DNA of 64,000 bases from Sphingomonas taxi (GTDB taxonomy: Bacteria; Pseudomonadota; Alphaproteobacteria; Sphingomonadales; Sphingomonadaceae). The notes under the pieces were generated by a model. It saw nothing but the letters and a program-made list of their open reading frames with translations, did no database searches and was not told where the DNA came from. This document shows positions 29,157 through 63,060 of the stretch, one piece after another (position 1 is the first letter of the stretch; each line of letters starts with the position of its first letter). The stretch spans positions 248,001 through 312,000 of the forward strand of contig NZ_CP009571.1 in the NCBI RefSeq assembly GCF_000764535.1. Reading direction: 5' to 3'. Made by a program: the position numbers and the translations under genes.

Positions 29157-29235
29157 AGAGAAATTTTTGACGTCTATGGATGAGGCTCGATGGGCATCGG
29201 AATGCGCACGAGGGGATACCGAAGGGGTAAGCGGC

Positions 29236-30753
29236 GTGGATGATACGAATGCTGCAATTCGTTCCGTTCTGATCGTCGGGGGTGGTACGGCCGGATGGAT
29301 GACCGCCGCGGCATTGTCGCATGCCCTTGGCGAGCGGTGCCAAATCACTCTTGTCGAGTCCGATGAGATCGGGACCGTCGGCGTAGGCGAGGCGACGATC
29401 CCGCCGATCAGGCTGTTCAATGACACGCTTGGCATCGCGGAGGCGGACTTCCTTCGCGAGACCAAAGGTAGTTTCAAGCTCGGCATCGAGTTCGTTGATT
29501 GGGCCAAGCTGGGACATCGTTATTTCCACCCCTTCGGTACGTTCGGCAAACCGTTCGATCTGGTCGCGGTGCATCAGCACTGGCTGGCGGCACGCGCGGC
29601 GGGATCCACGATCCCGCTCGATGATCTGTCGATGGCTTGGGCCGCCGCCAGCCGGGGGCGGTTCGCCGCGCCGATGACGGACCCGCGCAGCGTCGCCTCG
29701 ACGTTCGATTACGCTTATCATTTCGATGCCGGCCTCTACGCCGCTTTCCTGCGCCGCTATGCCGAAGCACGTGGCGTCAGTCGCGTGGAGGGCCGGGTCG
29801 GCGACGTCGCGCTGCACGGGGAAACCGGCCATGTCGCGCACGTCGGTTTACGGGACGGGCGGCGGATCGATGCGGATTTCTTCGTCGATTGCTCGGGCTT
29901 TCGAGGTCTGCTGATCGAAGGGGCGCTGGCCACAGGTTACGAGGACTGGGCACATTGGCTGCCGTGCGACCGTGCGGTGGCCGTGCCATGTGCCACCGGG
30001 GGTGACGGTATGACGCCCTATACACGATCCACCGCACGCGCGGCCGGATGGCAATGGCGTATCCCGCTCCAACATCGAACCGGCAATGGCTATGTCTATT
30101 GCAGCCGCCATATCTCCGACGACGAAGCCACGGCGACGCTCATGGCGAACCTCGACGGAGAGGCGCTGTCCGAGCCCCGCCTGCTGCGTTTCACCACCGG
30201 CCGCCGTCGCACGTTCTGGAACAGGAACGTGATAGCGATCGGACTGGCAAGCGGCTTCATGGAGCCGCTTGAGTCTACGAGCATACACCTCATTCAAACC
30301 GGTATCGCCAAACTGCTCGCCTATTTTCCAACACGAGATTTCAGTCCGCTACTGATCGACGAGTACAATCGCGTGGCTATCACCGAATATGAGCGGATCC
30401 GTGATTTCCTGATCCTGCATTACAAGCTGACGTCGCGTGACGATGCGCCGCTGTGGAGGGACTGCGCCGCGATGACGATACCCGATACGCTGGCATTGAA
30501 GATTGCTCATTTCCGCCAGGGCGGCCGTCTCATCGCTCGAGATATGGATCTATTCGGCCCCGCGAGTTGGCTGGCCGTCCACATCGGCCAATTGAACCAT
30601 CCCCTTGGTTCCGACCCTCTGCTGGACAGTTCCAAAGCCGCGGCGGCAAGCACCACGTTTATCGGTCGCCTGTCGGAAGCAATGGCGACGATGGCACGGT
30701 CGATGCCGACCCATGAGAGCTACCTCCAGCGTCTTACCCGGTCGATGGCATAA
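29236..30753 (+). CDS. Tryptophan-halogenase-family flavoprotein of a carbohydrate locus
   Basis: 505 residues from a GTG preceded by GAAGGGG eight bases away; an ATG 20 codons upstream is an alternative. FAD-binding start [15 protein letters not shown], then [10 protein letters not shown], the [15 protein letters not shown] stretch carrying the WxWxIP signature of flavin-dependent halogenases, and the terminal YFP / FMEPLEST loop. The catalytic Lys of true halogenases is generally in the GxGxxGEAT-following helix; ETKGSFKLG matches that position. Homologues sit in TonB-carbohydrate loci of Caulobacter, Xanthomonas and sphingomonads, where their substrate is unknown. A LacI-type site lies upstream. 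Confidence 0.85.
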
Positions 30754-30772
30754 AATGTGATGCAAGCATGCT

Positions 30773-30806
30773 GCAATCCATTGCACAATGTGTTGCAAAC
30801 GATTGT
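30773..30806. promoter_or_regulatory. Tandem LacI-type operator candidates before the TonB receptor
   Basis: Two 12-base near-palindromes: GCAATCCATTGC at 30773-30784 and GCAAACGATTGT at 30795-30806. Their starts are 22 bases apart, two helical turns. The second matches the LacI/GalR core nGnAAnCGnTTnC. They lie 60-90 bases before the receptor ATG, in promoter position. Similar sites precede the divergent sugar operon and the halogenase gene. Confidence 0.6.
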
Positions 30807-30864
30807 GAAGCTGGTATGTGCGATCCCATAGCCCCCGGAGCGGGGCGTACGAGGAGGGATTGCC

Positions 30865-33423: not shown

Positions 33424-33434
33424 TCCTCCCCGGT

Positions 33435-33469
33435 GGACGGAGTGCGGCAACGCCGTGCTCCGTCCTTTT
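33435..33469 (+). terminator. Rho-independent terminator of the TonB receptor gene
   Basis: A 14-base-pair stem (33435-33448 with 33452-33465, twelve Watson-Crick pairs and two G-U) with a 3-base loop (AAC), immediately followed by TTTTGTTT. It begins 11 bases after the receptor stop and ends 32 bases before the lacI-type start, so read-through into the regulator would be limited. Confidence 0.85.
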
Positions 33470-33501
33470 GTTTGGATTGTCGCCGGGTTAGTGCTGGCCA
33501 C

Positions 33502-34521
33502 ATGACGAAAGCAAAGCCCGGCGTCACCATTCGAACCCTTGCGGATCTCGCGCGTCTCGCCGGTGTTCACGCGGGTACGGTATCGCGCGCGCTCGCCGGC
33601 AGCACGGTAGTGAACGACGAAACGCGATTGCGGATCGAGGCGCTCGCGGCGCAGCACAACTTCCAACCCAATCAGATGGCTCGCCGGCTGCGAACGCAAC
33701 GTACGGGTGTGATCGGCATCGCCGTGCCGCTCGGTCACGAACGCCGTCAGCATGTCTCCGACCCGTTTTTCCTCACGCTGTTCGGGCATCTTGCCGATGC
33801 GCTGACCGAGCGCGGCTATGACATCATGCTGTCGCGCATCATCCCCGATGCCGAAGACTGGCTAAGCCGAGTGGTCCGATCCGGGATGGTCGATGGCGTC
33901 CTGCTCATCGGGCAATCCGACCAGTTCGACGTCATCGAAGCCGTCGCACAGGATTACCAGCCGTTGGTCGTATGGGGCAGTCATGTGCCGGGCCAGCGGC
34001 ACTGCGCGATCGGCGTCGACAACTTCGGTGGCGGCCGATTGGTCGGCGAGCATCTGATCGCCCGGGGCTCGACCCGCATCGCCTTCATGGGCGAAATCCG
34101 CACACTCGAGATTACGGAACGCCACCGCGGTTTATGTGCCGCGGCCCAAGCGGCGGGCATTGCGCCACCGATCCAGCTGGACACGCACATGGCATCCGAC
34201 GTGATGGGCGAAGAGATCGCCGCGAACCTCGACCGGGTTTCGGGAAAGATCGACGCGATCGCCTGTGCCTCCGATGTCATAGCGCGTCAGACGATCCGCA
34301 CGTTGACCGAACGCGGCCTTTCCGTACCGGGCGACATCAGGGTCACCGGCTTCGACGATCTGCCCTTTACCGAACAGATGATCCCGTCGATCACGACGGT
34401 CCGCCAGGATCTCGCGATCGGCAGCACCGCCATGATCGACGCGCTTTTCGCGCGGATAAAGGGTGAAGACACACCGTCTCTGGAAATGACGCCTCGCCTG
34501 ATCGTTCGCGACAGTGCCTAG
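33502..34521 (+). CDS. LacI/GalR-family transcriptional repressor
   Basis: 339 residues. N-terminal helix-turn-helix with hinge (TLADLARLAGVHAGTVSRALAG, residues 11-32, and NQMARRLRTQ at the hinge), then the periplasmic-binding-like sensor domain (IGIAVPLGHERR, GVLLIGQS, VGVDNFGGGRL, FMGEI, ACASDVIARQ, VTGFDDLPF). The start is the ATG where the HTH begins. It overlaps the convergent alpha-galactosidase by four bases. It likely binds GCAAnCGATTGT sites upstream of the receptor, sugar operon and halogenase gene, released by a sugar such as raffinose, melibiose or a breakdown product. Both operator assignment and inducer are inference. Confidence 0.93.
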   Translation: MTKAKPGVTIRTLADLARLAGVHAGTVSRALAGSTVVNDETRLRIEALAAQHNFQPNQMARRLRTQRTGVIGIAVPLGHERRQHVSDPFFLTLFGHLADALTERGYDIMLSRIIPDAEDWLSRVVRSGMVDGVLLIGQSDQFDVIEAVAQDYQPLVVWGSHVPGQRHCAIGVDNFGGGRLVGEHLIARGSTRIAFMGEIRTLEITERHRGLCAAAQAAGIAPPIQLDTHMASDVMGEEIAANLDRVSGKIDAIACASDVIARQTIRTLTERGLSVPGDIRVTGFDDLPFTEQMIPSITTVRQDLAIGSTAMIDALFARIKGEDTPSLEMTPRLIVRDSA

Positions 34522-36713
34522 GGTGCCGCCTCGAAAACGAAGGCCGCTCCCACGAAATCACCCTTGAGCGGCGCACGAATGCCCTGCGTCATCCAATAGC
34601 GTCCGCTAGCGATCGTGGGTATGCCTGCCGGCAGTGCACCGCCACCAAGCATCCGCACCCTGTAGCGCTGTTCAGGCGCCAGCCCCAACGGCAGGATCGC
34701 ACCCGGGTTGTCGCGCCACATCGATGAATGCAGCATCTGGAACAGCACCGCCTGTCGCTGATCCCGGCCCACGTACATCGTCGCGGACGTCGAGACCGAC
34801 GCATCGGGGCTTACCAAGCGATAGAGTTTTCCGCGCTGCACGGTCGGGCGAATGGTCTTGTAGGCAGCGATCCATTTCGTCGCGGTCGCAAAGTCCTCCG
34901 CCTGCCATTTGATCAGGTTCGCGCCGATCCCAAGCCCGCCCTGCATCGCGGACAGGAACCGATAGTCGAGCGAGGTGACACGCGTGTTCGCCCAATTGGG
35001 ACTGTCGGTCACCCACGCCATCATCGTTGCCGGCGCATAGGCGCGGGTAAAGCCGTCCTGGATTGCGAGCCGGTCCGATGGATCGGTATTGTCCGATGGC
35101 CAAACCTCGTCGACCCGCGCCATCATCCCCAGATCGACGCGGCCGCCGCCCCCCGCGCACCCCTCGATTTCCAGACCCGGATGGCGCTGCCGCAGCGTAT
35201 CGAGGATCGCGTACAGGTTGCGGATATAGTCCACGTAAAGCCTTTGCTGATCCTCCGGTGCCTGTCCGGGCCAGCCCGGTTCGGTCCAGCGGCGGTTGAC
35301 GTCCCATTTGAGGAAGGCGATGTCGTTCTCGCTCACCAGCCGGTCGAGCCAGCCGAGGACATGCGCGCGGACATCGGCACGCGCGAGGTTCAGGACGAGC
35401 TGGTTGCGCGCTTCGGTGCGGGGACGCCCGGGGAAGGCAATCACCCAATCGGGATGCCTGCGATACAGGTCACTGTCGGGATTGACCGATTCCGGTTCGA
35501 CCCACAGGCCGAAATCCATACCGAGCGACTTCACCTTATCGATCAGCGGCTTCAGCCCATTGGGGAATTTGCGCGGGTTGACGGTCCAGTCGCCCAATCC
35601 GGCGCGGTCGCTGTCGCGTGCGCCGAACCAGCCATCGTCCACCACAAACCGCTCGGCACCGATCGCCGCCGCCTTCTCCGCCAGCGCCATCTGCCCTGAT
35701 TCCGTTACGTCGAACGCGGTTGCTTCCCAGCTGTTGTACAGCACCGGGCGCAGCTTCGCGCGGGCATGGTCCGGCAAAATGTGTGCGAGTTGAAAATCGT
35801 GGAAGGTACGCGATGCGCCGCCCATTCCATGATCCGAATATCCGGCATAGAAGACCGGCGTCTCCAGCGTTTCGCCCGGCTTCAATCGCCACGCGAAATC
35901 GTAAGGATTGTACCCCGCTGCAATCCTCACCCGACCTAGCACGTCCTGGGCGACGCTGATCCGGAACGAGCCCGACCAGGCGAGGGCGCCGAACCACACG
36001 GGGCCGCTTTCCTCGGCGGTCTTGCCCTCTTTGCCGATCGCGAACCATGGGTTGTTGCCATGGCCGGTCAGGCCGCGCCGGCTTTCGATCGCCGTCAGGG
36101 CCGGCGTGACCGGCACCGTCTTCAACGTCCATTCCGCGGCATGCCGCCCGGTCAGATAGTTCAGACGATAATCGTCGCCGCTCGGCAGCGTGAACACCGC
36201 CGCGGCGAGCTGTTCGACCCGCACCGGGCGACGGCTGCCGTTGTGGATGGTCGCCGAGCGCGCGAGGATGCCCGTGTCGGGATCGATCGTGTAGCGCAGG
36301 GTCGCGGTGAAGGGCTGCGCGATATCGGCCAGTTCGACCGTCAGCGTTTCGCCATCGACGCGGTGGCTGCGGTATTTGAGGACGAGGTCGCGATTGCCGT
36401 CCGCAAACGCAACTTTGACGCCCGGTTCGGTGACCAGCCCTTCGCCTTGCCCCGGAAACTCCTGCGCCGTCACGGTGGGTGTCGGATCGAAGCTCGACGG
36501 TTCGGTGACGATCGGCACGACGATGGGATCGCTCTCGGCTACGGCACCACCCCAGTGGATCGATCGCAGATAGCCCTTGTCGTCGATACCGAGCGCATAG
36601 GTCACGCCGTTGCCATCGAGCCGGAACACCCGCGCGCCCGGCGCTGCCGTAACCCGCGCCTGCGCCGGTATCGCCAGAACCACGAACGGCAGGCCGAGCC
36701 ACAGGCGTCGCAT
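34518..36713 (-). CDS. Exported GH36 alpha-galactosidase
   Basis: 731 residues with signal peptide MRRLWLGLPFVVLAIPAQA. GH36 catalytic barrel: N-terminal beta-sandwich, FVVDDGWFG, nucleophile Asp471 in LKWDVNRRW, acid/base Asp541 in WPSDNTD, and FLKWD context typical of alpha-galactosidases/GH36 of melibiase clan GH-D. Length is usual. The periplasmic location would let it remove galactose from raffinose-family sugars after outer-membrane passage. Last gene of the four-gene operon; its ATG overlaps the preceding stop by one base (TGATG) with a GTG three bases earlier as an alternative. Confidence 0.9.
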   Translation of the reverse strand: MRRLWLGLPFVVLAIPAQARVTAAPGARVFRLDGNGVTYALGIDDKGYLRSIHWGGAVAESDPIVVPIVTEPSSFDPTPTVTAQEFPGQGEGLVTEPGVKVAFADGNRDLVLKYRSHRVDGETLTVELADIAQPFTATLRYTIDPDTGILARSATIHNGSRRPVRVEQLAAAVFTLPSGDDYRLNYLTGRHAAEWTLKTVPVTPALTAIESRRGLTGHGNNPWFAIGKEGKTAEESGPVWFGALAWSGSFRISVAQDVLGRVRIAAGYNPYDFAWRLKPGETLETPVFYAGYSDHGMGGASRTFHDFQLAHILPDHARAKLRPVLYNSWEATAFDVTESGQMALAEKAAAIGAERFVVDDGWFGARDSDRAGLGDWTVNPRKFPNGLKPLIDKVKSLGMDFGLWVEPESVNPDSDLYRRHPDWVIAFPGRPRTEARNQLVLNLARADVRAHVLGWLDRLVSENDIAFLKWDVNRRWTEPGWPGQAPEDQQRLYVDYIRNLYAILDTLRQRHPGLEIEGCAGGGGRVDLGMMARVDEVWPSDNTDPSDRLAIQDGFTRAYAPATMMAWVTDSPNWANTRVTSLDYRFLSAMQGGLGIGANLIKWQAEDFATATKWIAAYKTIRPTVQRGKLYRLVSPDASVSTSATMYVGRDQRQAVLFQMLHSSMWRDNPGAILPLGLAPEQRYRVRMLGGGALPAGIPTIASGRYWMTQGIRAPLKGDFVGAAFVFEAAP

Positions 36714-37870
36714 CACCGCGGCACCACGACGGTCGCCGTATCGCCCTGCAACGCCAGCCGGAACCAGGGCGCCGCCGTTCCGCCGAAATGCGCGCGGCGG
36801 ACCGTCGCGTCATCCAGCGGCTTGCAGGCCAATCCCCAGAAATCGACGAAGCTGATGACGTCGCCTTCGCCCGTCACCCACCAGCAATAGCCCTGATACG
36901 GCTCCGCCGGCGGATTCGCGGCGACGAGGCCCGAACCGTTGAGCGGACGCCAGGGGCCCGACATGTCGGATGCGACCATGCCGTACAATCCGGTTGGCGC
37001 GCCAAGGCCATCGGCGAAGCGCTTCGCCTGGGTCGACCAGAACAGATAATACAGGCCGTCGCGGTGCACGATGTGCGGGCGTTCCAGCTCGCTATTGACG
37101 CCGATCGCTTCGACCAGCGGCGGTGCCAGCGTCCACGCATCGTCGCTGCTCGCCCGGCGCGCGACACCGACAACGCCATCATGCACGTCGTCGACCCGGC
37201 CCGCCGATCCGCTGAACAGCAGATATTCGGCGTTATCCGCAGGGTCGCGGAAATATCCGGGATCGCGGAAGCCCTTGATGCGGCCGTCCACTGCGTCCTC
37301 CTGGTCGGCGCGGAGGTACAATTCGCCATCCGCCGCGATGGACTCGACCGGCATACTCCAGTCGCCAACCCGCCCGTCGGCGAAGCGCCCGCGCGTTTCG
37401 AACAGCCGCTGTTCGAAGGTGCGCGGTCCGCCTTTGCGCCCCGATGCGGTGAAATACATCGTCAGCGTGACGCCATCGTCGTCCAGCACTGCCGACCCCG
37501 ACCATTCGCGGCTGCCCGGCGTGAACCCGTCCGGAAAGGCATTTCCATGATCGCGCCAGCCGTCCGCGCCATGGCTGGTCAGCCGGATGCGCGCCGCGTC
37601 GTGCCGGTCGTCGGGATCGGCGAACCGCGGCGTCGCGAGGAAGAACCACCAGCTGCAGCCCTCGACGATCACCGTCCGGCCGTCGGCATCGGCGATCTGC
37701 CACATATCCCACAGGTCGTGACCGGCGATGATCGGAACGACATCGGCCGCCGTGATGACCGGAAGCGCCGCGGCGGGCTGGTCCGCCGCCCTTCGTGCCT
37801 GCGCCGCGGTCCAGGGCGTCGGGATTTCAGGATCATCGCGAAAAGCCGGGGAGGGAGCGGTCGGGATCAT
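36713..37870 (-). CDS. GH68-family enzyme (levansucrase / beta-fructofuranosidase type)
   Basis: 385 residues, no signal peptide. GH68 five-bladed motifs in order: nucleophile Asp55 in DLWDMWQ, EWSGSAVL, transition-state stabiliser Arg-Asp in GFRDPGYFRDP (202-203), and acid/base Glu263 in ELERPHIV. This order and the spacing are those of levansucrases, inulosucrases and the sucrose/raffinose-hydrolysing members. The lack of a signal argues for a cytoplasmic hydrolase of sucrose or raffinose, rather than the secreted fructan-makers that dominate the family. Overlaps both operon neighbours. Confidence 0.85.
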   Translation of the reverse strand: MIPTAPSPAFRDDPEIPTPWTAAQARRAADQPAAALPVITAADVVPIIAGHDLWDMWQIADADGRTVIVEGCSWWFFLATPRFADPDDRHDAARIRLTSHGADGWRDHGNAFPDGFTPGSREWSGSAVLDDDGVTLTMYFTASGRKGGPRTFEQRLFETRGRFADGRVGDWSMPVESIAADGELYLRADQEDAVDGRIKGFRDPGYFRDPADNAEYLLFSGSAGRVDDVHDGVVGVARRASSDDAWTLAPPLVEAIGVNSELERPHIVHRDGLYYLFWSTQAKRFADGLGAPTGLYGMVASDMSGPWRPLNGSGLVAANPPAEPYQGYCWWVTGEGDVISFVDFWGLACKPLDDATVRRAHFGGTAAPWFRLALQGDTATVVVPR

Positions 37871-39972
37871 GGTGTCTCCAGTGCGAACAGCGCGACGCTC
37901 TCCGCCTTCATCATCGGGATCGGGAGACCGGCCTGTGCCAGCCAGTCGCCGTCGAACAGCACGCCCTCCGCCCGCATCCGGGCGAACAGAGGGGCATCGG
38001 GCGGCGGGTGTCCGTCTTCGCTCGCAAGGTCGATCAGGCGGACACGCACCGGCCCGGCACCGGCCAGCGGCGGCAGCGTCACCGCGGGCGGACGGCGGAC
38101 GATCGTGGGATCGATCCGCGTCACGCTCAGCAACAGGTCGCCGATGTCACCATGCATCTGCCAGACCAGCCCGTCGGGTCCGTCGCCCAGCCAGACGCGG
38201 CCCGTGTGAAGCCGATCCCGTAGCGTCTTGTACCGCGAGATCGCCTCGCCGAGCACCGCCGCATCCCGATCGGTCAGCGTCGCGGGATCCAGCTCGACCC
38301 CGAAATGCCCGGGAAGCGCGACCGCAGCGCGGAACGCCATGCCCTGTCGCCGCCCGGTGGAATGTGCCGGGCTGGCGCCGACATGGCTGCCCATCATCTC
38401 CGGCGGCATGAAGTGCAGATACCCCCGCTGCATCCGCACCCTGCTGACCGCGTCGATACAATCGCTGGTCCAGAACCGGTGTGTCCGCGCCGCGATACCG
38501 GCGTCGATGCGCCCGCCACCGCCTGCACAGGCCTCGATCTCCACCGCCGGATGCGCCACCCGCAGGCGATCGAGCACTGCGTAGGCGCCGACGACCTGTG
38601 CATGATAGCCGGGCCGTCCGTCCGCGCCCCCCGCGGGTGCCAGGTCGCGGTTGTGATCCCATTTCAGATAGGCGATCGGCAGGTCCCGCAGCAGGGCATC
38701 GATCGCCTCGAACAGATAGTTTCGCACCTCCGCCCGACCGAGATCCAGCACCAGCTGATGCCGCGACGTCAGCAACGGAACACCATCCGCCTGCAATGCC
38801 CAATCGGGATGTGCCCGCGCCAGATCGCTGTCCGGGTTGACCATCTCCGGCTCGATCCACAGCCCGAACGTCATGCCGAGGGCCACGACATGATTCGCCA
38901 GCGGCGCCAGTCCGTTCGGATATTTGGTGCGATCCGTCACCCAATCGCCCAACGCCGCGGTGTCGTCGTCGCGCCCTTTGAACCAGCCGTCGTCGAGCAC
39001 GAACCGCTCGACGCCCAAGGCGGCGGAGCGATCCGCGAGCGCCATCAGCGCCGCCTCGTCATGGTCGAAGTAGAACCCTTCCCAGCTGTTCACATGCACG
39101 GCGCGGGGCGGCATCCCCGTTGCCGGCCAGGGCGCGCGGCCGCGGATCGCCGTGTGAAAGCCCTGCATCGCGCCATTCAGCCCGGCGACCGAACATACCG
39201 CCAGCATGTCCGGCGTGTCGTAGCGCTCGCCCGGTGCGAGCCGGCATTCCCCCGGTGCCGGCGCCTCGCCCATCTGGAGCAGCCATACGCCATCGTCGTC
39301 GCGCTCGATCGACAGCCGGTGGTTGCCCGACCAGGCCAGTTGGGCCGCATGCACGCGGCCGCCGTGCCATCCCGCATCCGGTCCCATGACGAACAGGCCC
39401 GGTGGCCCGGCGTGCCCGGTCAGCCCGCGCCGGTTCTCGCGCAACCAGCCGTGCGACGGCATCGGTTCGACCTGCGGGACGAACTCGGCGTTGTGACGGC
39501 CCTGGAAGCTGCGGATACCGGTGCAGTCGGCCGGCAGCGGCAGGGTTCCCGCGGCGAGCCATTCGACGTCGAGCACACCGTCGCCATCGTTGATCACGCT
39601 CGCCGAAAGCGTGATGCCGTCACCGCGGACGGAAATCCGCTGAACCACGGTGACACGCGCGGTCTCATCGACCAGCGTGACGACGATCCCGTCGTCCGTC
39701 GCCACGATCGACCGGGTCTCGAACCAGTGCGCGAAGGCCCGTCCCGCCCGATGCGCGCGCAGCGCCGGCGATCCGAACCAGCCGGAGCCGAACGCCGGCG
39801 TCACGGTCAGCGGCTGATCCACGTCGAGCGAGAAGGACGTCAGCGGACGGACGTCGGCAAGCGGCGGCAAGGCCGCGGCATCGACCTTTGGTCCCCACCA
39901 CCGCCATACCGGAGGCCGATCGCCACGCGCTTCCAGCACCAGACTGGTGGTGGGTCCGTTGTGTACGATCAT
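37867..39972 (-). CDS. Cytoplasmic GH36 alpha-galactosidase
   Basis: 701 residues without signal peptide, homologous to the exported GH36 of the same operon. Catalytic residues: nucleophile Asp439 in AYLKWDHNRD, acid/base Asp504 in WTSDCID; GLWIEPEMVNPDSDL precedes the nucleophile, as usual. Cytoplasmic GH36 members act on raffinose, stachyose and melibiose taken up by permeases. The start is the ATG overlapping the carrier's stop by four bases; reading further upstream is not protein-like. Together with the exported copy it allows cleavage on both sides of the inner membrane. Confidence 0.92.
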   Translation of the reverse strand: MIVHNGPTTSLVLEARGDRPPVWRWWGPKVDAAALPPLADVRPLTSFSLDVDQPLTVTPAFGSGWFGSPALRAHRAGRAFAHWFETRSIVATDDGIVVTLVDETARVTVVQRISVRGDGITLSASVINDGDGVLDVEWLAAGTLPLPADCTGIRSFQGRHNAEFVPQVEPMPSHGWLRENRRGLTGHAGPPGLFVMGPDAGWHGGRVHAAQLAWSGNHRLSIERDDDGVWLLQMGEAPAPGECRLAPGERYDTPDMLAVCSVAGLNGAMQGFHTAIRGRAPWPATGMPPRAVHVNSWEGFYFDHDEAALMALADRSAALGVERFVLDDGWFKGRDDDTAALGDWVTDRTKYPNGLAPLANHVVALGMTFGLWIEPEMVNPDSDLARAHPDWALQADGVPLLTSRHQLVLDLGRAEVRNYLFEAIDALLRDLPIAYLKWDHNRDLAPAGGADGRPGYHAQVVGAYAVLDRLRVAHPAVEIEACAGGGGRIDAGIAARTHRFWTSDCIDAVSRVRMQRGYLHFMPPEMMGSHVGASPAHSTGRRQGMAFRAAVALPGHFGVELDPATLTDRDAAVLGEAISRYKTLRDRLHTGRVWLGDGPDGLVWQMHGDIGDLLLSVTRIDPTIVRRPPAVTLPPLAGAGPVRVRLIDLASEDGHPPPDAPLFARMRAEGVLFDGDWLAQAGLPIPMMKAESVALFALETP

Positions 39973-41309
39973 CGGGCGCTGGCTCCGACGGGGAGTCCCT
40001 GAGCATTGCGCTCGCGCACGCTCCAGACCGCTGCGGCTGCCGCGAACATGAGCACACCGCACAAGGTCAGGACGTTCCGCGGGTCACTGCCGAGCAATCG
40101 GTCGTAGAACAGCCACATCGTACCCGAGAAGATCAGCATCGGGATCACGATCATCATGTTGAAGATGCCCATATAGACGCCGGTTCGTTCCGTCGGGATC
40201 GCCCCGGCCAGGATGACGTACGGATTGCCCATGATGCTTGCCCAGCCGATGCCGATGCCGATCGCGGGCAGAAACAGCATGGCTTTGTCCGTGACGTGCG
40301 GCAGCCACAACATGCCGGCCCCCGCCAGGATCAGGCAGGCGGCATGCAGGCTCGCCGCGCCCACTCGCTTCGCCAGCGGCACCATCGCGAATGCCGCGAC
40401 GAAGGCGACGCCGTTATACCACGCCGCCATCTCACCGTTGGTCAGCACCGCGGAATGGAAGCCGGAGGATGTCGGTACGTCGGTGCGGTACACCGATCGC
40501 CCGACCGAATAGATGACATAGGCCCAGTATGCGGCCATCGCGTACCATTGGAACAAGCTCATCAGCGCCAGCTTGCGCATGGCAACGGGCATGTCGTGGA
40601 TCGCCGATGCGATCTCTCCCAGCATAGCGCCGAACCCCTTGGGCTCGGCGGCGATCCGAAGCTTCTCCTCCGCCGACAACGGCAGTTCGGGAACCCGTCG
40701 GATCGACCAAAGGATCGTCGTGAAGCTCAACGCCGCGCCGACCATGAAGGCGATCCGCGCCGTATAGGGGATGTTGTGCGCATCGACCCAGTCCTGGTTC
40801 ATCCCCGCCCAGACCAGCACCGACGGGGTAAGGAACGCCAGCATCTGCGCGAGGCCGGTGAAGGCGCTCTGCGTCAGGAACCCGATCTGGTGCTGGTCCT
40901 CGTTCAGCCGGTCGGAAACATAGGCACGATACGGCTCCATCGTGATGTTGTTGCCGGCATCGAGGATCCACAGCATCGACACCGCCATCAGCAGCGACGA
41001 ACTCAGCGGCATGAAGAACAACCCTGCTGCGCAGAGCAGCGCTCCCATCAGGAAATACGGCGTTCGTCGCCCCCAGCGGCTGTCGGTCCGGTCGCTCATC
41101 GCACCGATCAGGGGCTGAACAAGCAGACCGGTCATCGGTCCCGCCAGTTGCAATAGCGGCAGCGACGCCTCCGAAGCTCCTAGATAGCTGTAGATCGGCG
41201 CCATATTCCCCTGCTGCAGCCCGAACGAGAACTGGAGACCGAGGAAGCCGAGGTTCATCTCGAGGATTCGCGGTAGCGATAGGTGTGGCTTCGAACCGGG
41301 CAGGGGCAT
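39969..41309 (-). CDS. MFS sugar carrier (sucrose/raffinose type)
   Basis: 446 residues, twelve predicted membrane helices. Seen: the inner loop DRTDSRWGRRTPYFLMG, the family-conserved motif between helices 2 and 3, and FQWYAMAAYWAYVIY. Alignment by eye favours the SUT/GPH-like disaccharide carriers seen next to alpha-galactosidases. First gene of the four-gene operon; the ATG chosen has GAGG six bases before it, with an ATG two codons earlier as alternative. A LacI-type site lies about 74 bases upstream. Confidence 0.85.
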   Translation of the reverse strand: MPLPGSKPHLSLPRILEMNLGFLGLQFSFGLQQGNMAPIYSYLGASEASLPLLQLAGPMTGLLVQPLIGAMSDRTDSRWGRRTPYFLMGALLCAAGLFFMPLSSSLLMAVSMLWILDAGNNITMEPYRAYVSDRLNEDQHQIGFLTQSAFTGLAQMLAFLTPSVLVWAGMNQDWVDAHNIPYTARIAFMVGAALSFTTILWSIRRVPELPLSAEEKLRIAAEPKGFGAMLGEIASAIHDMPVAMRKLALMSLFQWYAMAAYWAYVIYSVGRSVYRTDVPTSSGFHSAVLTNGEMAAWYNGVAFVAAFAMVPLAKRVGAASLHAACLILAGAGMLWLPHVTDKAMLFLPAIGIGIGWASIMGNPYVILAGAIPTERTGVYMGIFNMMIVIPMLIFSGTMWLFYDRLLGSDPRNVLTLCGVLMFAAAAAVWSVRERNAQGLPVGASAR

Positions 41310-41937
41310 CGACATCCTCAATGGCTGATGCCCATCTTCGCAGGCGTCAGCGGGGCATATCAGCAATAAGCCAGGGGGCACAACAATCGATTGCGAAAAG
41401 TTTTAGCCGGCATGCCCGGATCGTTTGGCGCACATGAAAAGAGGGTCTGGCGGGACTGCCAAGGCAGGATCGGTCTTCCCGATGCCGCCGGGGGCGGCCG
41501 TTTTCCGTAACCTGTTCCCGACTTCGTCGTCCTGAAGCGCGTGTTGGAGAGGGATCGGGAGGCAATGTGCAGGAAAGGTCCGCCTACGTCAGCAATCCTC
41601 ACGAAGACGCGCGATAGCTGCCTGATTGCACTGCCCCCAAACCAAGCCGTTCCGCGTGGCCAATTGCGCTCCCGGGGGCTCCGCTCGCATAAATGGGCGG
41701 CAGGACTCGAGCAGCAAAAAATGTGCTCGAATGGCCGGGATTGGGTGATGTTGACCGGAGACTGCGACGTACCTCATCTGTCGCGGCAGAGGCGCATCCA
41801 GGTTATCCCAGCGGTAGCGGCGCACACCGATGCGAAGATCCAGCGAGCATGCCATCGCCGTTCTCCGTCCGTGGCTCGTCAGGTGTCTGACCGACGGCGC
41901 TACTAACGCTGCATCCGTGTCGATGGTACTCTCGGCC
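41310..41937. other. Divergent promoter region between sugar operon and antiporter
   Basis: About 630 bases with no gene-like frame. It holds the LacI-type site at 41383 and, presumably, promoters for the sugar operon and the antiporter gene. Nothing else stood out. Confidence 0.5.
41383..41394. promoter_or_regulatory. Candidate LacI-type operator before the sugar operon
   Basis: ACAATCGATTGC, whose reverse complement GCAATCGATTGT matches 11 of 12 bases of the site before the TonB receptor (GCAAACGATTGT). It contains the CG-centred TCGATTG core, and lies about 74 bases before the carrier start. Confidence 0.6.
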
Positions 41938-55445: not shown

Positions 55446-57281
55446 ATGGAACAACAGGCTCTCGTTATTGCGCTGATCGGCGCCTTGGGGATCGGGGCGC
55501 AGTGGGTGGCTTGGCGGACGGGGTGGCCAGCCATCGCGCTGATGCTGGCCGCGGGTGTGGTCGCTGGTCCCGTCGCCGGGCTGATCATACCTAAAACTAC
55601 CTTCGGCGCCTTGCTCGAACCGATGATCTCCGTCGCCGTGGCGTTGATCCTCTTCGAAGGCGGGCTGAGCCTCAATTTCCGTGAGTTGCGCAAGACCGAA
55701 GGAGCTGTGATCCGCTTGATGGCGATCGGCATACCGGTCGGCTGGTGCCTTGGCGCACTGGCCTGTTACTACGTCGCCGGGCTCGTCTGGCCGGTCGCGA
55801 TCCTGTTCGCCGGCATCCTCGTGGTAACGGGCCCGACGGTGGTTATTCCCTTGCTACGTCAGAGCAATATCGCACCGCGGCCGCGCGCCATCCTGAAGTG
55901 GGAGGCGATCGTCAACGATCCGTTCGGCGCGCTCTGTGCCGTCATCACCTACGAGTATCTAAGACGGGTCGATGAAGGTGGCACCTTGCTGTCGGTGGTC
56001 GCTTCTCTGCTTGCCGCGGCGGTGGTTTCGGGCTTGATCGGTTACGGCATGGCGCGCGCCATCGCGTGGGCATTTCCGCGCGGCCATGTGCCCGAGTATC
56101 TCAAGGCGCCGGTCCTGCTCGTTGCCGTGATCGGCACCTTCACCTTGTCAAACGTCATTCAACAGGAGACCGGACTGCTCGCGGTGACCGTGATGGGCGT
56201 GGCAGTCGCCAACATGCGTCTCGACTCGTTGCGCGATATCCACCCCTTCAAGGAGAACGTGACCGTTCTGCTGATCTCCGGTGTCTTCGTCCTGCTCTCG
56301 GCATCGCTCGATTTCAGCGCCCTGCGCTCGTTCGAGTGGCGCTTTGCGGCATTCCTCCTTGTACTGCTGCTCTTCGTCCGCCCCGCCACCGTCTTGCTTG
56401 CCCTGGCCTTCAGCAAGATCCCATGGAACGAGCGGCTGCTGATCGCCTGGATCGCTCCACGGGGCGTCGTCGCAGTCGCCGTCTCGGGGCTTTTCGCGCT
56501 GCGCCTCGACGAGCTCGGCTATGGCAACGGCAACATTCTGGTCACGCTCTCCTTCGCCGTCGTGGTTGCGACGATCATCGCGCATGGCTTCAGTATCCGG
56601 CATGTCGCGCGCTGGCTGAAGGTCACCGGTGCAACCCAAAAGGGGCTCCTGATCGTCGGCAGCACACCGTGGAGCGTCTCGCTGGCTCGGCAAATCCAGT
56701 CCTTGGGCTTGCCGGTAATGATCGCCGATACGAGCTGGCAACGCTTGGGCGGTGCACGTCAGGCGGCGATCGACACCTATCATGGGGAGATCCTGGCGGA
56801 AGCGACCGACGAGCGGCTCGACCTCACGCAATTTCAGGTCTTGGCCGCCACGACGGATAATGAAGCGTACAATGCGCTCGTGTGCAGTGAGTTCGCGCAC
56901 GAAATTGGGCGGGATTCCGTTTACCAATTGGGGGCGAGCGGTGACGACGAGGATCGTCGTAGTCTACCGGAAGCCCTGCGGGGACGGGCGATGTTCACCG
57001 CTGGCCATGGGGTGGACGACATCCTGCAACGCGAGACGGCCGGATGGACCTTCCGCAAGACTCGGATCAGCGAGCAATTCAAGTTTGACGACGCCCGCTC
57101 GATCTTGCCGGATGAGGCGGACATGCTGTTCGTCCTTCGCAAGGACGGTCGCATCCGCTTCTTCACCCATGCCGCCCGCCCCACGCCACAAAGCGGTGAC
57201 GTCGTGGTGTCCTATGGACCCTCGCGACATGGCGACCCAAACGCTAGTCCGTCCATCCAAGCTGGAGTGAGTGTCGCATGA
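55446..57281 (+). CDS. CPA1-type cation:proton antiporter with C-terminal nucleotide-fold domain
   Basis: 611 residues. Thirteen membrane segments with antiporter motifs GVVAGPVAGLIIPKTTFG, LFEGGLSLNFREL, GILVVTGPTVVIPLLR, EAIVNDPFGALCAVI (the ND pair), and APRGVVAVAVSGLFAL. A C-terminal TrkA-N/RCK-like domain (GLLIVGSTPWSVSLARQIQSLGLPVMIADTSWQRLGG, about 390-440) and a further TrkA_C-like tail suggest regulation by nucleotides. Likely Na+ or K+ efflux coupled to proton entry. It is four-base coupled to the OmpA gene. Confidence 0.88.
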   Translation: MEQQALVIALIGALGIGAQWVAWRTGWPAIALMLAAGVVAGPVAGLIIPKTTFGALLEPMISVAVALILFEGGLSLNFRELRKTEGAVIRLMAIGIPVGWCLGALACYYVAGLVWPVAILFAGILVVTGPTVVIPLLRQSNIAPRPRAILKWEAIVNDPFGALCAVITYEYLRRVDEGGTLLSVVASLLAAAVVSGLIGYGMARAIAWAFPRGHVPEYLKAPVLLVAVIGTFTLSNVIQQETGLLAVTVMGVAVANMRLDSLRDIHPFKENVTVLLISGVFVLLSASLDFSALRSFEWRFAAFLLVLLLFVRPATVLLALAFSKIPWNERLLIAWIAPRGVVAVAVSGLFALRLDELGYGNGNILVTLSFAVVVATIIAHGFSIRHVARWLKVTGATQKGLLIVGSTPWSVSLARQIQSLGLPVMIADTSWQRLGGARQAAIDTYHGEILAEATDERLDLTQFQVLAATTDNEAYNALVCSEFAHEIGRDSVYQLGASGDDEDRRSLPEALRGRAMFTAGHGVDDILQRETAGWTFRKTRISEQFKFDDARSILPDEADMLFVLRKDGRIRFFTHAARPTPQSGDVVVSYGPSRHGDPNASPSIQAGVSVA

Positions 57282-58064: not shown

Positions 58065-58913
58065 TCAGCCTGAGCATCGAAGCCGGCTGCTCGTCGGATC
58101 GACACGCCCCTGTAGATGCCCGAACAATGGCGTTACGATCAGATGCGGTACAGCGAGAGCCGCAATCCCTGCGAATAGGGGGCGGACCCCGGAAGGGTCA
58201 AAGCGCAACAAGACCGTGCCTGTTACGGCGGCGAGCAGTATCGCGGCGACGAGTATCGGAGCAGTGGCTCGAAGATAGCTGCCCGTCGTTGCACAACCGA
58301 TCCGCGTACGCCGTTCGACCGTCTGGGGTTCGGCATGCAGAACGAGAAATCCAACGGAAAATCCCACTAGTGGCGGCAAAACGATAAGGGCCGCCGTCCC
58401 GATCAGAAGGCGCAGGTCGTGGCGCTGAGATGCTATTACAATCAGATATGCTGCCGCTATCGCGCCGAACAGCGCCATTGCCGACACCATTGCGGGCAGT
58501 ACGTTTGTCGAGATGCCGCCAAGACTAAGGAGATCCGCAAGATTCGTCGCATGGAAAGTGGCGGGGGTGGCGACAAGGCTCGTCCCTCGCGCAATTCTTT
58601 CCAGCGGCCGATCTGCTGGTGCATCTTCAACGCCGAAATGAATTGCCGACGCGATGAGAAAAGCGGGAAGTGCGACCGCCGGATCGACGATCCACCACCA
58701 GAGGCAAGCCGCGCCCACAAGGACGTATAGGGCGACGAACATAGTGCGTTGCCGCGGCTCGACGATTGCCAGGTCGCTGGCGCCATGTGCCATGCCGATG
58801 ACGCCAATCGCCACGACCGCAAACGTCAATTGTACGGCCAACGAACCGAAGGAGGCGGCAGCCGCCGCCCCCAGAAGCAGGCCCCAGCCCCAGGCTGGAG
58901 CGCGGGCGATCAT
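58065..58913 (-). CDS. blh: Blh/Brp beta-carotene 15,15'-dioxygenase (retinal synthase)
   Basis: 282 residues, about seven to eight membrane segments. The Blh family cleaves beta-carotene to two retinals with a non-haem iron held by histidines; candidate ligands here are His43 (GMAHGASD), His92 (AIHFGVED), His193 (VLHAEP) and His257 (AVPHLIV), in the family's positions. Located in the inner membrane. The ATG overlaps the rhodopsin stop by four bases, so enzyme and rhodopsin are made together. No carotenoid genes (crtEBIY) appear in the window, so beta-carotene must come from elsewhere. Confidence 0.92.
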   Translation of the reverse strand: MIARAPAWGWGLLLGAAAAASFGSLAVQLTFAVVAIGVIGMAHGASDLAIVEPRQRTMFVALYVLVGAACLWWWIVDPAVALPAFLIASAIHFGVEDAPADRPLERIARGTSLVATPATFHATNLADLLSLGGISTNVLPAMVSAMALFGAIAAAYLIVIASQRHDLRLLIGTAALIVLPPLVGFSVGFLVLHAEPQTVERRTRIGCATTGSYLRATAPILVAAILLAAVTGTVLLRFDPSGVRPLFAGIAALAVPHLIVTPLFGHLQGRVDPTSSRLRCSG

Positions 58914-59623
58914 GACTGGTGACCGCGTTCGGTGTTGTGCTGCTCCAGCGCCTTGTCCAGGTTGCTTGCCGCATAGAAGGCGTAAACGATCTTGGCGACG
59001 ACATCCATGATCAGGATCGCCCACACCGATGCCGGATCCGTGATGATCTTCATCCCTTCGGGACCGATTAGGAAGACGACCGGATAGAGGAACCAGATAA
59101 CCGTCAGGAAGGCGACGTTCTTGTTGTATGCCGTGCCCAAAGCCATGCCCCGGCTTTGCGCCAGCGTCCGTAGCGGCCCCCACAAGAGGTACAGAACGCC
59201 GAGAAAGGCGACGCATGACCAGGCATACCAGACCCACTTTGCGAAAGAGGGACCGGCCAGCGACGACACCAGGCCTGTCACTATCATCAGCACGTCGAGG
59301 ACGATGATGGCGGTGAGGTGGCCACCGACCTCGCCAGTCTTGCCATGCTCATGGAAAGCCAGAAGAACGAGGCTCGATAGCAGGATCGGCGTTGTCACCG
59401 ACCAATCAAGGTATCTCGCGAGATAGGTGACCGAGCCGTCGAGCTTGAACAGCGTGCCGATGCCGAAGGCCATTGCCAGATAGGCCGTAGCTGCAATGAA
59501 CGGCACGCTGGCATGCAGCAGCGTATGGTGGCCGGACGGGTGACTTTTCTTCCCCGTCGCATAGATCGCTAGCGAACCCAGCGACATGATTGTGAACCCA
59601 AGCAGGAAGGCAGTCTGATCCAT
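58910..59623 (-). CDS. Bacterial rhodopsin, outward proton pump with DTS motif
   Basis: 237 residues, seven helices. Helix C RYLDWSVTT gives Arg70, Asp73 (proton acceptor), Thr77, and Ser84 where bacteriorhodopsin has donor Asp96: a DTS motif. Schiff-base lysine is Lys211 in MDVVAKIV, with counter-ion Asp207. Leu81 corresponds to proteorhodopsin position 105, hinting at green absorption. His37 in helix B sits where the DTG/DTS rhodopsin group (Pseudomonas and Sphingomonas members) has its functional histidine. So this pumps protons out of the cell with an unusual or absent carboxylic donor. Start ATG 59623 has a GGGGAT site upstream. Followed by blh. Confidence 0.95.
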   Translation of the reverse strand: MDQTAFLLGFTIMSLGSLAIYATGKKSHPSGHHTLLHASVPFIAATAYLAMAFGIGTLFKLDGSVTYLARYLDWSVTTPILLSSLVLLAFHEHGKTGEVGGHLTAIIVLDVLMIVTGLVSSLAGPSFAKWVWYAWSCVAFLGVLYLLWGPLRTLAQSRGMALGTAYNKNVAFLTVIWFLYPVVFLIGPEGMKIITDPASVWAILIMDVVAKIVYAFYAASNLDKALEQHNTERGHQS

Positions 59624-59923
59624 GCGGGATCCCCAGCACAAGGGGGCGACCCGATGCCGACCCAAAATGCATAACATGGATTGTATCGTTTTGTGTCCAT
59701 GCCGGAGCGAAGTCCATCGGCTTGTCACAAAGCGCGATTGATAGGAGAGGAGCGGACACCAGCTTGGTAAACGGGGAACAGCCGTCGTTCTCCACGGCTC
59801 CGGCGAACTGAGCTGCACAGCTTTTGCAGCATGATACTGGAGCCTAGCTGATTGTGGAACGCGCCGTCGCCTGAATCGCTGAGACGGACCGCCTGTCGCC
59901 CACCAACAAACTGAAAGTTCCGC
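59624..59923. promoter_or_regulatory. Divergent promoter region of rhodopsin and CaCA exchanger
   Basis: 300 bases without a gene. On the minus strand TACAAT (59680-59685) is a good -10 hexamer 57 bases before the rhodopsin ATG, with no matching -35 at standard spacing. Light- or redox-responsive sites could not be recognised. Confidence 0.35.
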
Positions 59924-61003
59924 ATGTTCAACGGACTCGGCCTGCCGGTTTTGCTCGCGATCTTTGCCGCCTGCGCGGGTGTAATCTGGGTCGCTGGCGT
60001 GAAGCTAGCTGATACGACGGACATTCTGTCCTCGCGACTTCATCTGGGCAAGGCGCTCGGCGGTATCATCGTACTCGCCATAGCCACCAACCTGCCCGAG
60101 GTCGCGATCACCGTCAGTGCGGCGCTGGCAGGCAATCTAGGGGTGGCGGTCGGCAATATCCTGGGCGGCATCGCCATCCAGACGGTCGTTCTCGTAGCGA
60201 TGGACATCGCCATGAAGGAGAAGGTGCCTCTGACCTACCGCGCCGCCAGCCTCACGCTGGTCGTGGAGGCGGTGCTGGTCATAGTGGTCTTGATCGTGTC
60301 GATCATGGCGACGCAGTTGCCCGGCACGCTCATCGCGGCCCGCCTGACTCCTGGGGCGGTGTTGATCGGCGTTTTGTGGGTGATCGGCGTGTGGCTTTCC
60401 AGCAAAGCCAGCAAGGGGCTGCCTTGGCAAGATGCGAGCGGCACCGCTCCCGACGGTCAGGAAGAACCCAAGGGGCACTCAAAGGTAAAGAAGGATGACG
60501 ACTCCGGAAAGCGGGGAGAGAGCACGGTTAACGTCGCATTGGTCTTCGGCGCTGCGGCGCTCGCGACCTTGGCAGCCGGCGTACTCCTGGAGCGAAGCGG
60601 CGACGCCATTGCCGATCATATCGGCCTCAGCGGGGTCCTCTTCGGGGCAACGGTACTTGCGGCCGCCACGTCGCTGCCCGAGCTCTCGACCGGCATCACC
60701 TCGGTGCGCATGAAGGACTATCAGCTGGCCGTCAGCGACATCTTCGGCGGAAACGCCTTTTTGCCCGTGCTCTTCCTCCTAGCCGTCGTCATCTCAGGCA
60801 AGGCGGTGCTGCCTGATGCTCAGGCGAGCGACATCTACCTTGCGGGCCTTGGAGTGTTGCTGACCTGCATCTACGCCGCAGGCCTGATTTTCCGACCCAA
60901 GCGTCGAGTTTGGCGCATGGGCATCGATTCCGTCGCCGTACTTATCCTTTATGCCGTCGGCGTGGGTGGCCTGTTCGCAATATCTAGCGGTCACGGCGGC
61001 TGA
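59924..61003 (+). CDS. CaCA-family calcium/sodium (cation) exchanger
   Basis: 359 residues, ten to eleven helices in two inverted halves. Alpha-repeats: ATNLPEVAITVSAALAGN followed by GVAVGNILGG, and ATSLPELSTGITSVRMKDYQLAVSDIFGGNA, carrying the acidic transport residues. Between the halves lies a charged cytoplasmic loop (EEPKGHSKVKKDDDSGKRG). Exchanges Ca2+ or Na+ for protons or sodium. Divergent from the rhodopsin gene, hence likely dependent on the same proton motive force. Confidence 0.88.
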   Translation: MFNGLGLPVLLAIFAACAGVIWVAGVKLADTTDILSSRLHLGKALGGIIVLAIATNLPEVAITVSAALAGNLGVAVGNILGGIAIQTVVLVAMDIAMKEKVPLTYRAASLTLVVEAVLVIVVLIVSIMATQLPGTLIAARLTPGAVLIGVLWVIGVWLSSKASKGLPWQDASGTAPDGQEEPKGHSKVKKDDDSGKRGESTVNVALVFGAAALATLAAGVLLERSGDAIADHIGLSGVLFGATVLAAATSLPELSTGITSVRMKDYQLAVSDIFGGNAFLPVLFLLAVVISGKAVLPDAQASDIYLAGLGVLLTCIYAAGLIFRPKRRVWRMGIDSVAVLILYAVGVGGLFAISSGHGG

Positions 61004-61156: not shown

Positions 61157-62170
61157 TTAGGACGACAGTAATTTAGCGATCCACCGACTGCGATCGAATT
61201 GGCCGCAAATGATCACGATTGCGGCGGTAAGTGGCACCGCGATAAGTGCGCCAGCGATGCCCCATACCCAGCTCCAAAACGTCATCGCGACGATGATCGC
61301 CAGCGGCGAAAGCGACAGTTGCTTCCCTTGCAGCAGAGGATAGACGACGTTGCTGATCGTCATTTGCAGGACGACGAAGCCGACGAACACTAACGCGGGC
61401 ATCTGCCACCCACCGAATTGGATCAGGGCAAACAATACGGGTGGCACGATCCCGACGATGTTGCCAATCACGGGTACGAAGTTGAGCAGGAAGTTTAGGA
61501 TACCCCAGACGAGCGCCAGTTCCAGCCCGGTCATCCATGACCAGAGGGCGGAGGCGACGCCGGTCAGGATGCTGGTCGCGAGCGTCGTACCAAGATAGCG
61601 TCGGACCTGACTCGATATCTCCTCGCCAACATCCAGCATGTCACGACGCGCGCCGCCGTCGAACATCTCGTACAAGCGACGCCTGAGGCGCGGTACCTCG
61701 GGCAGGCCGAGCATCACGACGATCCCGATGAACCCCACGTACGTGACAAAGGCGTAAGCGCCGCTCGCGAGCATCTGCAACAACGCCATGATTCGTTGCC
61801 GGTTGATCGTTCCGGCGATCGGCACGCCGCGATTGGCAGCCCAACTGGCAAGCCGCGTATATGCCTTCTCAAGCCCCGCCCATTGCGAGGACATTGCGCC
61901 GATCACCTGCCCGATCGACAGATACACCGCAGCGGCAAAGGCGGCGAGGATCCCAACAAGCGACAGCAAGGTCAGCGTGTAGGCAAGCCACGAGGGCATA
62001 TACCGGCCGAGCAAACGCTTGAGCGGCCACAGGGCGGCGACGATGATCGCTGCGAAGGCGATCGGCATAATCACCGCGAACGCGCTGCGCAGTGCGGCAA
62101 TCAACATGATCGCGGCAATGATCGTCAGCATGCGGTTGTGGTAGCGGCCCTGAACCTGACTCTGGGTCAT
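61157..62170 (-). CDS. AI-2E-family transporter-like permease
   Basis: 337 residues, eight helices with the AI-2E/PerM pattern: an N-terminal pair (MLTIIAAIMLIAAL, FAVIMPIAFAAIIVAALWPL), a helical periplasmic stretch, FLLNFVPVIGNIVGIVPPVL, and a terminal MTFWSWVWGIAGALIAVPLTAAI. Members include sodium/proton antiporters, so an ion role is possible; the name 'autoinducer-2 exporter' is not warranted. Four-base overlap with the upstream YihY gene. Confidence 0.88.
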   Translation of the reverse strand: MTQSQVQGRYHNRMLTIIAAIMLIAALRSAFAVIMPIAFAAIIVAALWPLKRLLGRYMPSWLAYTLTLLSLVGILAAFAAAVYLSIGQVIGAMSSQWAGLEKAYTRLASWAANRGVPIAGTINRQRIMALLQMLASGAYAFVTYVGFIGIVVMLGLPEVPRLRRRLYEMFDGGARRDMLDVGEEISSQVRRYLGTTLATSILTGVASALWSWMTGLELALVWGILNFLLNFVPVIGNIVGIVPPVLFALIQFGGWQMPALVFVGFVVLQMTISNVVYPLLQGKQLSLSPLAIIVAMTFWSWVWGIAGALIAVPLTAAIVIICGQFDRSRWIAKLLSS

Positions 62171-63060
62171 TCTTGTCGCTCCTCAATCTTAATGCCCGCA
62201 TCAGCCATGACCTCAGCATTGAGGCGCGCGCCGAGCAGTAGCGCCCAGGCGGACACCATCAGCCACAGCATCAGCACAACCACTGCTGCAAGCGAGCCAT
62301 AGGTGTCGTCGAACCGCGCGACGTGCGCGACGTAAGTACGAAATAGGATCGTCGCGATGAGCCACATCGTCACGCCTCCGACTGTTCCCGGCAAGGCGTC
62401 GCGCCACCCGATCGCCCGTTCTGAGGCGGGGGCGTAGCGGTAGATCAGGATCAGGCCGGCGCCGGCGCCGAGCGTCAGCGACCCGAACAAGGTGAGGGTG
62501 GAGGCAAGTCGCGCGCCAGGCAAGCCGTCAGGAACATAGCTCTGGAGAAACGCCAGGATCGATAGCGACGCCAAGGCCGTCAATACGAGCGCGGCACAGC
62601 CGAGCACCAGCGCGGTCGAGACGAATTGCCGGCGCAGCCCACGACGCTCCCGCTCGATCCGGTAGGCGAGATTGATGCCGTGAAGCAGCGATCGACCGGC
62701 ACGCCGCGCGCTGAACAGCGCGATCGCAACCGATACGAGGAGCGTTGCAACGGAGGCCCGATCGGTTGCCAGCGTATTGTGCAATCCTCTGGAGACAATC
62801 GGCCTCGCGTCGACCGGCATGATCGCAGTCAATGTTTCGAGGTTTCGCGTAACTGTATGGGCTGGCACGAAGAAGCCGTACGCACCGGCGATCAGGCCAA
62901 TGAGCGGGATGATCGCGAGAAAGGCGGCAAAAGCAATCGAGCTTGCCGCGATGCCGAAATCGTCGCGCATACCGCTGCGGATCGTTCGCCACGACAGCAC
63001 AAACAAGCGCCGGGTCATCGTCAACCACGTCGGACTTCGCGTAATTGTAGTCTCGCCCAT
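62167..63060 (-). CDS. YihY/BrkB-family membrane protein
   Basis: 297 residues, six helices. Family motifs: GIAASSIAFAAFLAIIPLIGLIAG, the RRAGRSLLHGINLAYRIERERRG loop, and WLMVSAWALLLGARLNAE at the end. Usually uncharacterised; formerly mis-annotated as ribonuclease BN. Coupled to the AI-2E gene by a four-base overlap. Function unknown. Confidence 0.9.
   Translation of the reverse strand: MGETTITRSPTWLTMTRRLFVLSWRTIRSGMRDDFGIAASSIAFAAFLAIIPLIGLIAGAYGFFVPAHTVTRNLETLTAIMPVDARPIVSRGLHNTLATDRASVATLLVSVAIALFSARRAGRSLLHGINLAYRIERERRGLRRQFVSTALVLGCAALVLTALASLSILAFLQSYVPDGLPGARLASTLTLFGSLTLGAGAGLILIYRYAPASERAIGWRDALPGTVGGVTMWLIATILFRTYVAHVARFDDTYGSLAAVVVLMLWLMVSAWALLLGARLNAEVMADAGIKIEERQE

Follow-up and report, generated by a model that had tools for sequence, protein, structure and literature searches.

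SpaR of Sphingomonas paucimobilis is the type member of the published mirror proteorhodopsins, 103 of which, with DTG, DTS or DTT motifs, were reported in 2023 (Okhrimenko 2023, PMC10154332; this and the other articles given by PMC number are cited from part of their text). The clade is delimited by outward proton pumping at acidic pH only and by inhibition by mM zinc, and SpaR itself pumps outward at acidic pH, has a proton donor with a pK near 5.8 and is inhibited by zinc (PMC10154332). H32 and H33 on the cytoplasmic side and S121 and S199 on the outside are regarded as traits of the clade, the two histidines being used to tell it from MpR, for which pumping of Na+/Li+ has been described (PMC10154332, citing others). 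Mutants of S84, H37 and H32/H33 of SpaR have been studied: replacement of H37 by K, R or N did not dramatically change pumping, but F or L blocked it (PMC10154332). Made in E. coli, SpaR is a functional pigment that pumps (PMC10154332). The SpaR pigment lies at about 540 nm. DTG pumps of Pseudomonas and Pantoea, PspR and PaR, have also been described (Harris 2015, as cited in PMC10154332). As for the enzymes of the Brp/Blh family, changing His21, His78, His188 or His192 of the Blh of the uncultured marine bacterium 66A03 to Ala leaves in each case under 5% activity (PMC9227343, citing Kim 2009).

The rhodopsin and its place among described pumps

The window, that is, the whole stretch of 64,000 nt of Sphingomonas taxi DNA that we analyzed, carries a rhodopsin gene followed by blh. 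The features discussed here are listed below, with coordinates as positions within the window.

58910..59623, minus strand: DTS rhodopsin of SpaR type (mirror proteorhodopsin), 237 aa, with D73, T77, S84, H37, H32/H33, E92 and K211
59513..59515, minus strand: codon of His37 (59515-59513), proposed part of the cytoplasmic proton-donor group; His in 118 of 118 readable alignment rows
59407-59405, minus strand: codon of D73
59374-59372, minus strand: codon of S84
58993-58991, minus strand: codon of K211
58065..58913, minus strand: blh, homologue of Brp/Blh-family beta-carotene 15,15'-dioxygenase, 282 aa, its start overlapping the rhodopsin stop (ATGA)
58323..58337, minus strand: codons of H193-A-E-P-Q197 of Blh, in which the second His of the conventional H-x3-H is Gln
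59673..59698, minus strand: GGACA-N17-TGTT, a possible ECF-type promoter element of putative function, starting 75 bp upstream of the rhodopsin ATG
55446-57281: CPA-type (Na+/H+) exchanger
59924-61003: CaCA (Ca2+/cation) exchanger

The rhodopsin frame runs from an ATG at 59623 to a TGA at 58912-58910; its product matches the Pfam family Bac_rhodopsin with an E-value of 1.7e-44 and is the one protein of this family that a profile search detected in the genome. Helix C reads R70-Y71-L72-D73-W74-S75-V76-T77, with S84 further on, and His37 lies in helix B. The first-pass annotation of this DNA had pointed to the same residues, namely D73-T77-S84 with a serine for the usual carboxylic donor and His37 in helix B, and both the translation and the alignment agree with it. 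S84 occupies the donor position (D96) at which DTE/DTD proteorhodopsins have a carboxylate.

The best match in the PDB is SpaR (8ANQ; E-value 9.6e-117), with 78.4% identity over 232 residues. None of the 50 differing positions among these 232 falls on the 25 residues that we compared, 24 of which are named for SpaR in the available text of PMC10154332, the other being H91; all 25 are identical, including the DTS motif, H32, H33, H37, E92, S121, S199, R70, D207 and K211. All four clade traits (H32, H33, S121, S199), the clade motif of DTG, DTS or DTT together with the helix-B histidine, and the residues of the proposed zinc site (H32, H33, E92) are thus found in the window rhodopsin. H32 is present in 117 and H33 in 118 of 118 readable rows of the rhodopsin alignment.

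Rhodopsins of the PspR/PaR type have His37, D73 and T77 in common with the window rhodopsin, and G instead at position 84. The protein of PDB 7W74 is presumably of this type, and the 7W74 type differs from the window rhodopsin in having G32 and G92. Two MpR-like homologues from Methylobacterium are 35-37% identical to the window rhodopsin; the MpR-like protein of the Methylobacterium locus L098 has a DTG motif and His at position 37, as here, but not the H32/H33 pair. In a quick tree of 34 rows, the window rhodopsin, SpaR, 7W74 and the Pantoea and 7W74-type proteins form one group, although with a support of 87, below the program's mark of 95. Five DTG rhodopsins from other genera of the family adjoin this group, and the Methylobacterium and DTE proteins lie outside; the order of the deep branches is uncertain because the outgroup branches are long. 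The PDB match, the alignment and the quick tree thereby confirm the earlier assignment to the DTG/DTS group rather than to the DTE proteorhodopsins, and the proposed alignment to PspR- and SpaR-type sequences reveals that His37 and the DTG/DTS motif are shared with the SpaR clade.

The window rhodopsin is therefore an ordinary close relative within an already described clade, and it is most likely an outward proton pump that works mainly at acidic pH with His37 in its donor group. His37 may not be an obligatory donor, since SpaR still pumps with K, R or N in its place (PMC10154332). Considering that MpR belongs to another DTG/DTS clade with the same kind of three-letter motif and is reported to transport Na+/Li+ (PMC10154332), a sodium or lithium pump was also considered for the window protein. 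We regard this as highly improbable: the carboxylates of MpR at SpaR positions 30, 31 and 33 are missing (S30, G31 and H33 here), H32/H33, S121 and S199 are all present, and the Methylobacterium homologues are only 35-37% identical, the one included in the tree falling outside the SpaR group. The functional test that the first-pass annotation recommended has largely been done already on the 78% identical SpaR, including its S84 and H37 mutants.

The earlier impression that members of this group are few does not hold, considering the 103 proteins reported in 2023 (PMC10154332, available text) and the 288 relatives of the window rhodopsin returned by our protein search, of which the 120 listed are 71-98% identical. 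Among these 120 of 288 and the query (n=121), position 84 is G in 67, S in 53 and T in 1; S and G mix among close relatives, and DTS was rejected as a subgroup marker. Near full-length matches with an identity of at least 73% occur in 31 of the 295 genomes of the genus, counting this one; one of the 31 has an in-frame TGA, and four further genomes (G260, G213, G214 and G261) encode rhodopsins that are 58-62% identical; the raw genus tally of 72/295 also takes in distant rhodopsins and fragments. Matches in the wider samples, 12/397 for the family (E-value 1e-20) and 5/398 for the phylum (E-value 1e-10), include this genome and more distant rhodopsins. Two DTG/DTS homologues, each beside a dioxygenase gene, have been described in S. 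aerolata (PMC9584328), and we observed two complete rhodopsin-blh pairs on different contigs in Sphingomonas sp. BK345 (L059, L061).

Genomic setting of the rhodopsin-blh pair

The product of blh scores 108.4 bits against NCBIfam blh_monoox (TIGR03753; cut-off 95.25) and 97.4 bits against Pfam BCD (PF15461; cut-off 28; E-value 1.4e-27). Judged by these profiles, it is a member of the Brp/Blh sequence family and a putative enzyme. Its ATG at 58913-58911 overlaps the rhodopsin stop in the ATGA at 58913-58910, and such an overlap is typical of the clade: across 24 named loci, the stop codon of the rhodopsin gene adjoins or overlaps a possible start of blh as ATGA (5), GTGA (16) or TGATG (3). A blh match directly follows the rhodopsin in all 22 loci of a genome-contig search, a recurrence that argues against chance pairing. 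The coupling to blh through an ATGA overlap that the first-pass annotation described is thus real, but the strict stoichiometry that it derived from this does not follow, as the overlap suggests translational coupling and not a fixed ratio. In Sphingomonas sp. PAMC 26621 (L011/L051) the blh frame is shifted mid-gene next to an intact rhodopsin, which may be a sequencing error or a real break.

The two cation exchangers next to the pair had also been singled out as a point of interest. They are not conserved neighbors: neither recurs in any of the 24 named loci within flanks of ~5-6 kb on each side, and a functional link to them was rejected. In G276 and G085 a CaCA gene lies ~8.5 kb from the rhodopsin in another arrangement, a weak hint of such a link. 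Genes of AI-2E type and BrkB type (61157-63060, minus strand) recur near the pair in 4 of the 24 named loci, and AI-2E-like pieces are found near both decayed cassettes in G170 and G127. The pair occurs in changing contexts; examples are a Pantoea plasmid and, in S. parapaucimobilis, a place behind rpsD on a replicon of 395 kb. The profile search detected no reaction-centre protein (PF00124) in this genome. Reaction-centre phototrophy was accordingly rejected, and the word phototrophic, as used in the first-pass annotation, can only apply in the rhodopsin-based sense. Elsewhere in the window (~27300-41400), a putative sugar-use locus was recognized by ORF reading, comprising alpha-galactosidase-like and other glycosidase-like proteins, TonB-type receptors, a LacI-type regulator, an MFS transporter and a tryptophan-halogenase-like protein.

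Upstream of the rhodopsin, many Sphingomonas relatives have an element of the form GGANN-N15-18-[CT]GTT that begins 72-80 bp ahead of the start codon. Of 38 upstream regions, 25 show this pattern where it is expected, compared with 1.1 on average and 5 at most in 300 first-order Markov resamplings, but the contrast is overstated and partly circular because many of the same sequences had served to define the pattern: the loose form was first seen by eye in 25 regions, most of which are among the 38 counted, and relatedness was left in. The element is missing at the expected place in 13 of the 38, including the Pantoea-type and 7W74-type loci L092, L096 and L093. The window element loosely resembles the EcfG motif of Sphingomonas melonis, GGAAC-N17-20-GTT (PMC6599016). 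The strict EcfG-like pattern (GGAAC/T, spacer 15-18, GTT) occurs in 0 of 25 upstream regions, and the word rhodopsin does not occur in the text of PMC6599016. Control of the rhodopsin by the general stress response is offered as a suggestion only.

A glutamine at the fourth histidine position of Blh

The window Blh and that of 66A03 belong to the same family (PF15461/TIGR03753). When residue numbers were matched by spacing and order to the 66A03 enzyme (PMC9227343, available text), its His21, His78 and His188 correspond to H43, H92 and H193, and its His192 to Gln197; of the four histidines required in 66A03, the window Blh has three. The match of the last two places is clear because no alignment gap lies between them, and in the conventional Blh of locus L071 the corresponding histidines are residues 22, 77, 189 and 193, close to the 66A03 spacing. 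The first-pass annotation contains no remark on this unusual residue of the partner enzyme.

The Q-type Blh is a variant within a known family that is common to the clade and not peculiar to the window. Of 121 rows (the query and the 120 listed among 155 hits), 120 have Q at position 197, the sole exception being the relative P0149 with His. HAxPQT was present in 59 of 59 clade loci scanned, this genome included, a set that is partly redundant (22 named records largely repeat other genomes) and overlaps with the 121 rows. These loci include Pantoea anthophila (L096), the similar L092 and genome G1368 (L093), whose rhodopsin is 80% identical to PDB 7W74, so that the partner Blh of PspR/PaR-type rhodopsins in P. 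anthophila and in the 7W74-type genome carries HAxPQ as in the window. By contrast, His stands at this place in all conventional Blhs that are readable there (116/116, from the best 120 of 523 hits to one query; 4 gapped), in all 21 other Blhs from a class-wide sample, in the Blh next to a DTE rhodopsin of the same genus (L089), in L094/L095 and in a Methylobacterium Blh (L098); the Blh accompanying the MpR-like rhodopsin of L098 thus keeps the H-x3-H that the window Blh has lost.

The other three histidines are kept in 121, 120 and 121 of the 121 rows. A further family-wide histidine, H257, is present in 121/121 clade rows and 113/113 readable conventional Blhs, and D47 is conserved in the Blh alignment. 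The dN/dS ratio of Blh was 0.09-0.25 in the 10 of 11 Blh pairs that gave a value (2 of 22 pairwise values were not computable), rough figures because dS is saturated. The near invariance of the three histidines and the low dN/dS imply that Blh is under constraint. The Blh sequence has no match in the PDB up to an E-value of 10 and its predicted model (mean pLDDT 90.6) none among PDB folds at an E-value of 0.001, which leaves no template for the iron site. An open-access literature search returned no report of a His to Gln change in Blh; the change was not found in the available parts of PMC9227343, PMC13344046, PMC4110020 and PMC9584328, and blh has 0 occurrences in the main text of the mirror proteorhodopsin paper (PMC10154332).

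Retinal supply and inheritance of the cassette

This genome has only one PF15461 gene, as do 14 of 16 clade genomes (this one included), the exceptions being G182 with two complete copies and G109 with a second, decayed one. This genome lacks the RPE65-type oxygenase family PF03055, as do 18 of 20 genomes tested (exceptions G552 and G624). Retinal must therefore come either from the three-histidine Blh or from something else. A full-length lycopene-cyclase family protein (PF05834) is encoded in the genome with a strong match of 288.6 bits, the model also matching in 10 of 14 control genomes.

Our main reading, to which we give a probability of about 0.72, is that the pair forms a SpaR-type rhodopsin/retinal-supply cassette for proton export at acidic pH, in which the Q-type Blh still makes retinal. 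The rhodopsin would bind retinal at K211 and, on illumination, pass the Schiff-base proton to D73; reprotonation from the cytoplasm would proceed through the cavity of H32/H33/E92 and H37, with S84 in place of the usual carboxylate. Proton export would occur chiefly at pH values under about 6.5, and the cycle would be slow at higher pH. Blh, the partner, would belong to a lineage that has been inherited together with these rhodopsins and has Gln instead of the fourth iron-ligand histidine, and it would cleave beta-carotene, supplied by the CrtY-like cyclase of the genome, to retinal at a three-histidine iron site that Gln197 or H257 perhaps completes. An active three-histidine Blh is favored by the three near-invariant histidines, H257 and the low dN/dS; the activity of under 5% left by His192 to Ala in 66A03 (PMC9227343, available text) argues against it unless Gln or another residue serves as a replacement.

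Two other accounts of the Q-type Blh were weighed against retinal formation at a three-histidine site. It may have shifted to another substrate or product, such as hydroxylated carotenoids cleaved to 3-hydroxyretinal, and the rhodopsin would use this product or obtain retinal from elsewhere. Sphingomonads make hydroxylated carotenoids, a residue essential in the studied enzyme has been lost and its loss is nearly fixed in the clade, and the I, V or M found at the same place in the sister group (5/5) implies that the site is relaxed. However, the three histidines and D47 are conserved and the gene stays tied to a retinal protein. In the SpaR study, retinal was reportedly added to the E. coli culture. 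The functional SpaR obtained from E. coli (PMC10154332, available text) indicates that ordinary retinal suffices for the pump, and we consider a substrate shift unlikely. Smaller still is the chance that the Q-type Blh is catalytically dead, or a binding or delivery partner, with retinal coming from another enzyme or from the surroundings. The loss of activity in the 66A03 His192 to Ala mutant (PMC9227343) and the report of a bacterium without known retinal genes that still builds functional rhodopsins (PMC7734400, available text) are in line with this idea, to whose side the absence of PF03055 from this genome was also counted, but purifying selection, the near invariance of the remaining histidines and the position of a sole Blh directly after the rhodopsin in 14 of 16 clade genomes speak for a working enzyme.

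Six family genomes with sister DTG rhodopsins (L035-L040) have no blh in the flank examined (~4-5 kb for five, 1.5 kb for G380). In five of them, a Blh gene unlinked to the rhodopsin encodes I, V or M at the fourth-histidine place (L113-L117); in G345, the sixth, one Blh is of the His type and another has E. In a quick Blh tree of 46 rows (midpoint-rooted for drawing, with the trait column left in as one of 294), one branch (support 95) sets apart the Q rows and another (support 100) the hydrophobic rows, and the Q, hydrophobic and E rows together are split from all 26 His rows (support 95). The Blh tree splits as the rhodopsin tree does, both being quick trees with long outgroup branches. G170 (L125) and G127 (L126) have decayed remnants of rhodopsin and blh next to each other, and G109 contains a second, decayed rhodopsin-blh pair on another contig (C13), suggesting that pump and enzyme have also been lost together. 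It is about an even bet that, in Sphingomonas, Pantoea and 7W74-type bacteria, a separate Blh lineage with a three-histidine (plus Gln) iron site supplies the mirror proteorhodopsins, and that its distinct retinal-forming chemistry or substrate had a single origin and has since been passed on, by inheritance and by transfer, as one unit with the pump.

Blh, the sole retinal-forming gene of a known kind that was found in this genome, thus lacks a residue reported to be essential. Either not every Blh requires four histidines, or the chromophore of these rhodopsins has a different source. By their shared His to Gln change, rhodopsin and Blh are marked as a single cassette that evolves as a whole and is found in alpha- and gammaproteobacteria (Sphingomonas and Pantoea).
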